Positions 21,676-57,990 of a stretch of 64,000 bases of DNA are shown here, piece after piece. Origin of the DNA: Synergistaceae bacterium OttesenSCG-928-D05. GTDB lineage: Bacteria > Synergistota > Synergistia > Synergistales > Synergistaceae. The DNA is taken from contig JAJDJB010000004.1 in the NCBI GenBank assembly GCA_030266985.1, forward strand, positions 1-64,000, in the 5' to 3' direction. Position 1 is the first letter of the stretch. The number at the start of each line of letters is the position of its first letter. Below the pieces are notes generated by a model. The model made no database searches. It was given only the letters and a program-made list of their open reading frames with translations, and had not been told where the DNA came from. Both the position numbers and the translations under genes were made by a program.

Positions 21676-22986
21676 ATGACATATCGTATCGTACATTACA
21701 TCAACCAGTTTTATGCAGGAATCGGCGGCGAAGAAAAAGCGGACTACGCGCCCGAAGTGCGTGAAGGCGTTGTCGGACCGGGCATGCAGATACAGAAACT
21801 CCTTGAAAACGACGCCGTCGTCGTAGGCACCGTGATCTGCGGAGACGGTTTCTACGGAGAGAACACCGAAGAGGCGCGCGCGAAGTGTTTGGAGATGATC
21901 GCGGCGCTCAAACCCGACGCTTTTGTCGCGGGCCCCGCCTTCAACGCGGGACGCTACGGTTTTGCGTGCGGCGATATCGCCGCCGCAGTCGGCGAAAAAC
22001 TCGGCATTCCAACCGTGACGGCAATGTATCACGAAAACCCAGGCGTTGAACTTTTCTCCAAGAAAACTTACATTGTAGCGACGGGAGACAGCGCCCGCGC
22101 AATGGGGCAGGCGCTGCCCGCGATGACAAAACTTTTACATAAGCTTGTCATGAAGGAAGAAATGGGCCCCGCACGGCTTGAGGGTTATATCCACCGCGGC
22201 ATGCGCAAATCTTTCTTCCACGAAAAAAGCGGCGCGGAGCGTGCAGTCGATATGTTGCTCGCGAAACTCCGGGGCGAACCATATCGTACCGAATACGAAA
22301 TGCCGGTGTTCAACAAAATCCCACCCGCTCCGCCTGTTAAGGACCTCAAAAAAGCAAAAATTGCGCTGATCTCCTCCGGCGGCATCGTACCGAAGGGAAA
22401 TCCAGACCACATCCGCGTCTCGTCCGCCGAAAGCTACGGTGCATACGACATATCGAAGCTCGAAGACATGACGCCGGAAAACTACGAATCCATCCACGGC
22501 GGCTACGACCGTGAATGGGCGAACATCGACCCCGACGTCGTACTGCCGCTTGACGTGATGCGCGAACTGGAAGCGGAGGGCGTCTTTGCGAAAATCCACC
22601 CCGTTTTCTACACCACCACCGGAACGGGAACCGCCGTTGCGCATGCGGAGCGTTTCGGTCAGGAAATCGGAGAATTACTCAAAAACGCGGAAGTCGATGC
22701 CGCGATCCTCACATCCACCTGAGGAACCTGCACGCGATGCGGTGCATCGATGACCAGAGAAATAGAGCGTGTGGCAGGAATTCCCGTCGTCCAGATCGCA
22801 ACGATCGTACCGATCATGCTGACGGTCGGAACGAATAGGATAGTACCGGGCGTTGCAATTCCACACCCCACCGGTGACCCTGCGCAGGGACCTGAGGGGG
22901 ACAAAAAAATACGGCGAGAGATCGTAATGCGTGCGTTCCGTGCGCTCACAACGCCCATCGACGAGCAGACCATCTTTGAAAAATAA
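21676..22986 (+). CDS. grdB: glycine reductase component B gamma subunit GrdB, selenoprotein
   Basis: Selenoprotein of 436 residues if the in-frame TGA at 22720-22722 is read as selenocysteine (residue 349). The context AAILTST-U-GTCTRCGASM is the known GrdB active-site motif, and the downstream part (EIERVAGIPVVQIATIVPIMLTVG...) is the normal GrdB C-terminus. Without recoding it would look like two genes. The start at 21676 (MTYRIVHYINQFYAGIGG) follows AGGAGG; GGEEKAD is conserved. The selenocysteine accepts the carboxymethyl group from glycine and passes it to GrdA. A hairpin suited to SelB lies 12 bases after the TGA. Confidence 0.97.
22735..22749 (+). promoter_or_regulatory. candidate bacterial SECIS hairpin of grdB
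   Basis: CGATGC-GGT-GCATCG forms a perfect 6-bp stem with a GGU loop, starting 12 bases after the UGA at 22720-22722. Position and a G/U-bearing apical loop fit bacterial SECIS elements bound by SelB. Fold seen by eye only. Confidence 0.66.
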
Positions 22987-45356: not shown

Positions 45357-45400
45357 TGCACACAATGTTACACGCCGCGAAATTTTTCGCGTTCGAAATT
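45357..45400 (+). repeat. inverted-repeat family copy A (left of the DUF1659-like gene)
   Basis: TGCACACAATGTTACACGCC followed by GCGAAATTTTTCGCGTT and CGAAATT. The same ~37 bases recur with two or three changes in the opposite orientation at 46747-46783, and the first 19 bases recur at 47091-47109. Copies A and B flank the gene at 45731-46495. Confidence 0.85.
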
Positions 45401-45730
45401 GCAAACATAATGACCGAAACATAATTTTTTCTCCTTTCTCCCCCATTTCCCTAAAAACTGTTACATTCCCCGGGTTGCCAAATCACCCGCTTTTTGATAG
45501 CATTGAAGTTTGCGAAAGCTGTAATAGTAACGTTTCATAATTTACTTTTACTATTTTTCCAAATCATAGATAAACGTCCGGTTCGCAGGTGATGAATCAG
45601 GATAGAAATGTAATTCATGGAAGCGACACAGCTCTTTTTCGCTTCGCCGGTTCGTTTGTTGTCTTTAAAAATTACGCTTCTTCGGAAGCGATATATATAG
45701 AAAGAATCCAATCTTAAAGGAGAGCGGTAT
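45401..45730. other. AT-rich leader region of the DUF1659-like gene
   Basis: About 330 bases without a credible gene. It holds only AT-rich sequence and, presumably, the promoter of the next gene. No terminator or structure was recognised besides repeat copy A to its left. Confidence 0.5.
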
Positions 45731-46495
45731 ATGGGTACGATAACAACAACGGCAAGACTTGCGATGCAGATGGAGGTCGGCTTGACGCCGAAGGGAAAGG
45801 TCGCGCACAGGACGACGAGTTTCAGTGTGCGGCCGGATCTTTCAACGGAGGATGCGCGTGAAGTGGTGGCGGCGTTTCAATTGCTTGTGGAGTTTCCGAT
45901 CACGAGCGCGCGCCTGATTGTGAAGGATGTAAACCGTATCTGGGACCCTGAGATGCGGAAAGAGAAACTGGAAGAGGAAGAGACGAACAGCGCGCAGATG
46001 CAGCGCATGCAGCAGCGGCATGCGACACAGATGGGCGTTTCGGCTTCCGGTTCCTCCGGTTCGGGCGTTACGGCGTCCGCTTCCGTTCCTGTTTCGGGCA
46101 GCGCGCCCGTTCAGCAGAGCGCGCCGGTTCAGACGGCGCCGTCGGTTTTGGCGGAAGAGGCCATGCCGATGAAGGCGATGCCCGCTGCGCCCGATAAGCC
46201 GCGCTGCTTTGAAGCGGTTCCCTACGAATATGAAGAAACAGGGAACGGCGATTCGGAGCCGCTGGCGCTAGAAGGCGGCGTTTCCCTTGCGGAACGCGCG
46301 GCGGCGCTCTTCACGCAGGAAAAAATCGCGCAGTCGCAGAACTTCATGACGCGGATGCGGGCAAACGGCTATCAGGTACATATAGACGAGCTCACGCGCA
46401 ATCCCTTCATGCATACCATCGCGCAAAAAGGGACGGAGCAGCGGATTGAAACGCTCGAGCCGCCGATCTACGGCGATGGCAATCAGGTGCAATAA
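45731..46495 (+). CDS. DUF1659-like N-terminal domain fused to a low-complexity Ala/Ser/Gln protein
   Basis: Protein of 254 residues. Residues 1-70 resemble the small DUF1659 family (RLAMQMEVGLTPKGKVAHRTTSFSVRPDLSTEDAREVVAAFQLL). This is followed by a Gln/Met-rich stretch (QMQRMQQRHATQMG), an Ala/Ser/Val/Pro-rich linker (100-150) and a C-terminal charged domain (190-254). No signal peptide or membrane helix. Function unknown. GC-rich coding sequence sits between AT-rich flanks that carry inverted copies of a ~37-bp repeat, so the gene may have been inserted as a unit (inference). GGAGAG precedes the ATG. Confidence 0.7.
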   Translation: MGTITTTARLAMQMEVGLTPKGKVAHRTTSFSVRPDLSTEDAREVVAAFQLLVEFPITSARLIVKDVNRIWDPEMRKEKLEEEETNSAQMQRMQQRHATQMGVSASGSSGSGVTASASVPVSGSAPVQQSAPVQTAPSVLAEEAMPMKAMPAAPDKPRCFEAVPYEYEETGNGDSEPLALEGGVSLAERAAALFTQEKIAQSQNFMTRMRANGYQVHIDELTRNPFMHTIAQKGTEQRIETLEPPIYGDGNQVQ

Positions 46496-46746
46496 AAGTT
46501 AAAATCTAACACAGTTTCCTTTTCCTTTCTCCGCGCGTAATAATTAGCGGATCATAAAGCGCGCGTAAAAAGACGCGTAAACGCACCGCGTAAACCGGTG
46601 CGCTGGATGGCCAATTACCGTTTCACGGAAAGCGGGTGCGCGGACGAAAAGCGGGCGCAGAGATTTTTACGAAATGTGCGCGAAAATCCCCGCGCGGAAA
46701 AATTCTCGGAAATTTACGGAAATTTTTCTAAATTTCGACGCGATGA

Positions 46747-46783
46747 AACGCGAAAAATTTCGGGGCGTGTAACAATGTGTGCG
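46747..46783 (-). repeat. inverted-repeat family copy B (right of the DUF1659-like gene)
   Basis: On the minus strand this reads CGCACACATTGTTACACGCC then CCGAAATTTTTCGCGTT, matching copy A at 45357 almost base for base. The similarity resumes as CGAAATT after an 8-9 base insertion (about 46731-46738). Confidence 0.85.
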
Positions 46784-47090
46784 TTTTAAGAAAACGTAAA
46801 AAGGCATAGCCGGCGCGGCGAGCCTCCCCTGGCGTTTTTTTCTTATAAATTAAACCCTATTCGGTAAAAATAAACTCCTTTCATCTCTTCTCTTTTCTAC
46901 AGATAAATCTTCTCTACAAGCGATAAAATTAAACGTCATACCTTCTCGTTTTCCACAAAAAAATGAACCGTTTTCGACATAAATCCCTGAACCGTTTTCG
47001 TTTTTCGAAAAAACGAAAAATCTTGCGCGGAACGACGGCGTATATGCATTAGCGTTACGGAAAATTTTATTTTTCGCTTTTTTTCTGCAA

Positions 47091-47109
47091 TGCACACGTT
47101 GTTACACGC
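47091..47109 (+). repeat. inverted-repeat family copy C (partial)
   Basis: TGCACACGTTGTTACACGC, 18 of 19 bases matching the 5' part of copy A; the GCGAAATTTTTCGC part is absent. Confidence 0.75.
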
Positions 47110-47162
47110 ACCTATGAAAGAGGGAAACTGCAAAAAAATAATCTGTTACGGTTTGCAAACAG

Positions 47163-47202
47163 AATCACGGGGCTTTCGAGAAAAACCGAAAGCCCCGTGA
47201 TT
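47163..47202. terminator. 16-bp perfect hairpin terminator
   Basis: AATCACGGGGCTTTCG (47163-47178) pairs perfectly with 47187-47202. It lies 24 bases past the stop of the beta-helix protein on the minus strand; the following TTATTTAT suits the plus direction as well. Its ATCACGGGGCTT core is shared with the dispersed repeats at 24503 and 50645. Confidence 0.85.
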
Positions 47203-47225
47203 TTATTTATGTTTGCGTTATCCGG

Positions 47226-57205: not shown

Positions 57206-57990
57206 AAGATCCTGTCCTGAAGACGACGGGCGTCACGATGAAGTTCGGCGGCCTCACCGCAGTGGAAAAATTCGACATCGCGGTCGAAGAGGGCACCATC
57301 TCCAGTCTCATCGGCCCGAACGGCGCGGGAAAGACAACCTGCTTCAATATCATAACGGGTTTTTACCGTCCGACATTGGGCAGCGTTATTTTCATGGGGC
57401 GCGATATCACCGGCATGAAACCGCATCAGGTCTGCGAGGCAGGGATCGCGCGAACCTTCCAGAATATTCGCCTCTTTGCCGGCGGCACCGTACTGCAGAA
57501 CGTCATGACCGCCTGCTGGGTGCGCCAGAAATCGCCGTGGTGGTCCGCGCCGCTTTTGCTGCCGGGCGCACTGCGCGAAGAGCGTGAAATGCGCGATAAG
57601 TCGATGGAACTGCTCGAGGCGGTGGACCTTGCACACCTTGCGAAAGAAATCGCGACGGGACTCCCCTACGGCGCGCAGCGGCGTCTTGAAATCGCGCGCG
57701 CGCTCGCAACGCAACCGAAATTCCTCCTGCTCGACGAGCCTGCCGCTGGAATGAACCCGCAGGAAAGCAGCGAGCTCATGGATTTCATCAGAAAGATACG
57801 CGAGCAGTTCAAAATCACGATTCTGCTAATCGAACATGACATGAAGGTCGTCATGGGGATTTCCGAATGGATCCGCGTGCTGGACTACGGCGCTTTGATC
57901 GCGGAGGGAACGCCGGACGAAATCCGCGCGAATCCAAAAGTAATCGAGGCCTACCTGGGCAAGGAGGCGGCCGTTTATGTTAAAAATTGA
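57202..57990 (+). CDS. livG: branched-chain amino acid ABC transporter, ATPase LivG
   Basis: ATPase of 262 residues: Walker A GPNGAGKTT, the LivG-specific insert after the Q-loop (GIARTFQNIRLFAGGTVLQNVM), signature region LPYGAQRRLEIARALA, Walker B LLLDEPAAGMNP, and switch H in LLIEHDMKVVM. Coupled to livM by ATGA; overlaps livF by 14 bases. Confidence 0.97.
   Translation: MKDPVLKTTGVTMKFGGLTAVEKFDIAVEEGTISSLIGPNGAGKTTCFNIITGFYRPTLGSVIFMGRDITGMKPHQVCEAGIARTFQNIRLFAGGTVLQNVMTACWVRQKSPWWSAPLLLPGALREEREMRDKSMELLEAVDLAHLAKEIATGLPYGAQRRLEIARALATQPKFLLLDEPAAGMNPQESSELMDFIRKIREQFKITILLIEHDMKVVMGISEWIRVLDYGALIAEGTPDEIRANPKVIEAYLGKEAAVYVKN

Follow-up and report, generated by a model that had tools for sequence, protein, structure and literature searches.

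What are the short repeats that stand in opposite orientation on either side of a DUF1659-like gene, with a third copy close by? The window, by which we mean the whole 64,000-nt stretch of DNA analysed here, holds three copies (A, B and C) of a 19-mer that we call class I, and a sequence-only reading had proposed that they are either the ends of a small element or a paired binding site for one protein. The locus is laid out as follows.

45357..45375, plus strand: copy A, exact match to the class I 19-mer, TGCACACAATGTTACACGC
45376..45393, plus strand: extension of copy A, common to B, near-palindromic, CGCGAAATTTTTCGCGTT
45731..46495, plus strand: DUF1659-like gene between A and B (Pfam DUF1659)
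46747..46764, minus strand: extension of copy B, CCCGAAATTTTTCGCGTT, 17/18 identical to the extension of A
46765..46783, minus strand: copy B, class I 19-mer, inverted relative to A, CGCACACATTGTTACACGC
47091..47109, plus strand: copy C, class I 19-mer without the extension, TGCACACGTTGTTACACGC
47161..47204, plus strand: strong intrinsic-terminator-like hairpin adjoining copy C

The inverted pair and the gene it encloses

The inverted repeats and their third copy are present as first described: A (45357-45393, plus) and B (46747-46783, minus) lie on opposite strands and form arms of 36 nt that are 94% complementary, with a spacing of 1353 nt. The 19-mer occurs three times in the window at up to 3 mismatches, against 0.09 expected by shuffling. 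The picture of a GC-rich gene in AT-rich surroundings also holds, the middle of the gene reaching 59-63% GC and its flanks falling to 35-40%. Copy C had been said to keep the first 19 bases; it does keep the 19-mer, but slightly more is conserved on its left, where A and C form a 24-nt direct repeat (88%). Beside copy C the terminator-like hairpin at 47161-47204 is a separate structure; the repeats need not act as terminators there, and we rejected the idea that they are required as such.

Could A and B be the terminal inverted repeats of a small mobile element with the DUF1659-like gene as cargo? The 36-nt arms around one gene suggest as much, yet we consider this reading barely credible and have rejected it. 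Target-site duplications of 2-10 bp were sought beside A-B and beside three of three hairpin-forming pairs elsewhere in the genome, and none was found; the open reading frames read between A and B include no transposase gene; and copies of the repeat stand alone, in tandem or as inverted pairs, with the inverted pairs other than A-B enclosing unrelated DNA of differing length (13 to 38 bp). The gene itself points the same way. Its product matches DUF1659 at its start, weakly above the Pfam cut-off (E 4.9e-6, 26.8 bits vs 24.1), and at least three paralogues exist in the same genome (C86:51560, C57:675 and C1:87401; L173, L179, L183), near which the genome-wide match lists hold no class I sites. 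Because these paralogues do without the repeats, we judge the gene between A and B to be a bystander. DUF1659-like matches were found in 8 of 51 relatives; the own genome has a small multi-copy family of these proteins, and two relatives (G065 and G068) have 7-8 matches each.

Two families of dispersed intergenic sites

In the genome of the window (1.77 Mb in 107 contigs, 67% complete), class I amounts to 20 copies of TKCACACAATGTTACACGS. A genome-wide search with its 16-base core, CACACAATGTTACACG, returned 19 copies at up to 1 mismatch, copy C being the twentieth at 2 mismatches; at 1 mismatch the reversed control gave 0 and the chance expectation is 0.04. Seventeen copies thus lie outside the window, and the A-B pairing is one arrangement among many: the expectation that the ends would always be paired and inverted failed, copies also being single and in tandem in the genome-wide lists.

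When the 20 copies were aligned with 40-bp flanks (one of them cut by a contig end), the information content came to 31.8 bits (~32) over 19 positions and was near zero directly outside. Such sharp limits would fit the profile of a recognition site, not that of a longer transposed unit. To mark 20 sites, however, 17.4 bits suffice; the surplus suggests that the likeness of the copies is not due to binding alone and that they are probably also related through recent copying. The 19-mer is not a palindrome and the aligned copies carry no GTAG-type head; by eye, two YACACR words lie 10 bp apart, one helical turn. Some neighbouring sequence recurs as well: the 11-mer GAAATTTTTCG has 4 intergenic occurrences in the 305 kb read, three of them within ~10 bp after a class I 19-mer (at A, B and C14:27331), and CGTTTTCTTAAAA or close variants stand to the left of several copies (by eye). 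Close inverted pairs (C22:11061/11093, C14:26832/26864 and C14:27946/28003) form strong hairpins (z ~-7) around interiors that differ in length and sequence, whereas neither A nor B gives a stable hairpin as a single copy, folding no better than shuffles.

A second family, class II, consists of ATTCACACGTTCGTTTGAAT and variants, a near-palindrome first spotted beside some class I copies. Its genome search gave 37 rows, or 27 distinct places after strand merging (control 0), and two inverted CACACG words can be made out by eye. Class I adjoins class II at C14:14239/14287 and C20:84097/84141, as does a weak class I match at C41:4335/4369, so that the two classes form mosaics. Class II also occurs in tandem arrays with differing units, 58 bp at C19 (C19:1146-1281) and 134 bp at C25 (C25:14041-14328), with further periods of 105 bp (C75:20093-20322) and 70 bp (C86:27309-27398); given these different periods, the palindrome seems to have been duplicated at each locus along with the local flank. 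In several flanks (L054, L060 and L094, on C13, C25 and C27) the class II half-sites are separated by a GC-rich CCCCGGATCGAAGTCCGGGG-type hairpin, by its appearance a third small repeat inside class II. Of the 47 sites in the two classes, five are no more than ~105 bp from a contig end (C33:13, C35:16149, C50:103, C26:48, C27:22899), an excess with p ~3e-4 as computed with 46 sites where the correct total is 47; true copy numbers are therefore probably higher.

The sites could be chromosome-organising, like parS or matS, and bound by an architectural protein. They are short, highly conserved and non-coding, and dispersed with one dense cluster, which would suit such a role; systems of the parS/matS type are conserved, with the site shared among relatives. 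Here, 0 of 59 relatives share the class I site at up to 1 mismatch, and we hold this explanation to be quite improbable. The host is Synergistota-like, a protein encoded near the window repeats ending in a Synerg-CTERM domain, which we take to be a mark of that phylum. A family-wide search for class I, which covered 51 relatives and overlapped with the 59 in many genomes, was likewise negative, no copy of the motif was found in viral contigs, and a scan of 84,980 species, from which records of the own genome may have been omitted, returned two single matches, one in a Cytophagales and one in a Paenibacillus record, that are probably chance.

Are the sites ordinary operators, through which a regulator controls the adjoining genes? 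The sharply bounded 19-bp profile would fit, as would one site 25 bp before a RelB-type start (C14:27255) and another 147 bp before a called gene (C14:14239). Their placement argues otherwise. With genes called by a home-made codon-score script, not a standard gene finder, all 20 class I sites come out as intergenic, distributed over 14 gaps. Against a baseline taken from stretches selected for holding sites, class I regions lie between convergent 3' ends in 7 of 12 cases vs 24 of 119 gaps (p 0.004; 2 of the 14 regions, at contig ends, are left out), and class II regions in 6 of 10 (p 0.007), 5 of 15 being left out (C27:22899, C50 and C26 at contig ends, C20:57445 in a gene, and C75:20093). 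The class II word at C20:57445-57464, which has one mismatch, lies inside the called gene at 57239-57664. The sole divergent class I gap adjoins a RelB-type gene itself, and copy A stands ~100 bp ahead of the nearest promoter-like match of the DUF1659-like gene. Since most sites are not upstream of genes but between convergent 3' ends, they are not ordinary promoter operators of a regulon, and we regard the operator explanation as improbable. The sequence-only reading would have settled for an ordinary regulatory site had the motif occurred singly in front of many genes; the motif is indeed often single, but it lies mostly behind genes. In placement, both classes resemble REP-like repeats, unlike the operators of a regulon.

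Lone RelB-type genes at the sites

A genome-wide search found six RelB matches in the own genome. Two of the six genes adjoin toxin genes, one YafQ-like and one YoeB-like, and the genome-wide lists place no class I or class II site near either pair. Beside the remaining four, no recognisable toxin was seen among the called ORFs read alongside (on C27, 81 bp of contig remain beyond the gene). Three of these four lone genes (on C14, C27 and C64) encode fusions with a C-terminal SEC-C zinc motif, two of the three having a long acidic middle or linker.

C14:26930-27229, minus strand: RelB-like gene, 99 aa; class I site 25 bp before the start (C14:27255)
C14:27402-27761, minus strand: RelB-SEC-C gene, 119 aa (L093); class I site 16 bp past the stop
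C27:22213-22863: RelB-SEC-C gene (L094), bracketed by class II at 22161-22180 and 22899-22918
C64:37787-38470: RelB-SEC-C gene (L092); the adjacent gap holds a class I site, ~780 bp off

All four lone genes match PF04221 above cut-off, while TIGR02384 is above cut-off in two and just below it in the other two; among solved structures the front comes closest to DinJ (4q2u, 4ml0) and the tail to the zinc motifs of SecA or YchJ. Class I is densest at C14:26832-28021, where 7 of the 20 sites stand within 1.2 kb around two lone RelB/DinJ-like genes, and on C27 class II stands 32 bp before the ATG and 35 bp after the stop of the RelB-SEC-C gene, with another class II site at 21894. Lone RelB genes neighbour four of the 14 class I regions, where gaps of this kind number ~7 among an estimated 727, with a p of 3e-6 that treats all gaps as equal and belongs to a link noticed after the fact; the corresponding class II value (2 of 15 gaps, p 0.008), which makes the same assumption, is closer to a test.

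From these observations we propose that A, B and C are members of a set of REP/BIME-like sites, dispersed through gaps mostly free of promoters, that may be bound by the lone RelB-type proteins, a reading to which we give about an even chance. Lone ribbon-helix-helix proteins of the RelB/DinJ type, mostly with a C-terminal SEC-C motif, would recognise the sites of each class; the YACACR and CACACG words would suit related proteins, to judge from the protein family. Sites beside the RelB-type genes would serve their autoregulation, the scattered copies could be extra docking sites, maybe titrating or tethering the protein, and copies would have multiplied by duplication on the spot and, now and then, by being copied into neutral gaps. 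The family, its sharp limits, its placement and its clustering are evident in the genome sequence; we infer the protein binding, the autoregulation and any effects of distant copies. The earlier notion of a binding site for one protein thus stays plausible, and the clustering of the family at genes for lone RelB-like DNA-binding proteins sharpens it. Several points weigh against the proposal: class II is the sole test of the RelB link; AT-rich gaps might gather both repeats and lone antitoxin genes; class I is more conserved than the marking of sites needs, to which recent copying probably contributes; and the RelB-SEC-C gene on C64 lies far from its class I site and lacks a dispersed family of its own, a genome search with its upstream DNA yielding none (E 0.07 for the next-best match).

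Alternatively, the sites could be REP-like selfish repeats whose transposase is missing from the 67%-complete assembly and whose nearness to RelB genes comes from shared AT-rich gaps. We see this as unlikely, if still a serious contender: the position behind genes, the hairpins of inverted pairs, the class I/II mosaics at C14 and C20, the tandem arrays and the excess conservation all suit such repeats, but the aligned copies have no GTAG-type head, A and B alone form no stable hairpin, and both families cluster at lone RelB genes. A RAYT mobiliser was sought and rejected: Y1_Tnp (PF01797), the family to which RAYTs belong, gave no match in the assembly, the same search being positive in 5 of 14 controls, although a third of the genome is missing, so that the gene may be too.

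Does the association of RelB-type genes with repeats extend to other genomes? At E 1e-9, a level at which weaker fusions could escape, RelB-SEC-C was found in none of 185 phylum genomes other than the own genome, which is one of them; a pattern check for the SEC-C signature in long open frames at the RelB loci of 12 relatives gave 0 of 12, and viral contigs yielded no match to the query. Among plasmids three records matched, candidates only by the query, of which at least 80% was covered in two. Around 35 loci from relatives, some with just a SEC-C match in a long frame, no pairing of RelB with a dispersed repeat family was established. In the relative G008 a different palindrome lies near a RelB-YafQ pair, repeated locally alone: in a search of five genomes its matches lay together on C46 (12.3-15.2 kb) apart from a single weak one, roughly what the control gave, and such a local repeat weighs against the generality of RelB-bound dispersed sites. 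Another relative, G025, has a local GCGAACATGTTCGC palindrome array ~1 kb after a RelB-YafQ-like pair, beside phage-like genes (L108 2926-3250).

Comparison with known repeat and antitoxin systems

The nearest known kind is that of REP/BIME repeats with a RAYT gene. REP-like repeats are usually attributed to a dedicated transposase, and the RAYT transposases are related to IS200/IS605. Class I and II share with them (i), the nature of dispersed, genome-specific, extragenic short repeats that occur singly, in inverted pairs and in mosaics; and (ii), a dedicated gene bracketed by the repeat, here RelB-type at C14 and C27, though this gene is not a transposase. They differ in that no catalytic domain was seen in the bracketed RelB-type gene, no Y1 tyrosine transposase flanked by the repeat was found in the assembly, and class I has neither a palindromic unit nor the GTAG head. 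Copy numbers differ too, 20-27 per family here vs the 37-427 perfect REP copies given for Stenotrophomonas, with fewer in some other hosts, in PMC2817692. Two of these departures, a bracketed gene other than a transposase and a non-palindromic class I unit, keep us from classing the system as REP-RAYT.

The RelB/DinJ antitoxin operators of type II toxin-antitoxin autoregulation offer a second comparison: they have the ribbon-helix-helix RelB family in common with our sites, as well as sites before and after the gene. Unlike them, the genes described here have no recognisable toxin gene beside them among the called ORFs read, three of the four are SEC-C fusions, and the sites are scattered genome-wide. 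MITEs resemble the sites as short inverted-repeat units in gaps, but in contrast to MITEs and IS ends there is no target-site duplication and no shared interior, and conservation stops at 19 bp. Finally, the lone genes are like orphan antitoxins in being antitoxin-like genes without a recognisable toxin; the portion of PMC7354431 available to us discusses orphan antitoxins as anti-addiction factors or decayed modules, not as partners of dispersed site families.

A bolder form of the proposal, speculative and in our view rather doubtful, would be a transposase-free analogue of REP-RAYT, in which lone RelB-SEC-C proteins each have a private site family that brackets the gene and spreads through gaps, so that antitoxin operators would have turned into self-propagating or architectural repeats. 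In the open-access literature we recognised no description of RelB-SEC-C proteins with dispersed repeats. The protein-site pair is small and open to a direct binding assay. If RelB-type proteins do bind these sites, genome-wide bacterial repeats would have a second route, via a non-catalytic, antitoxin-like DNA-binding gene, and lone antitoxins would gain a role besides toxin neutralisation.
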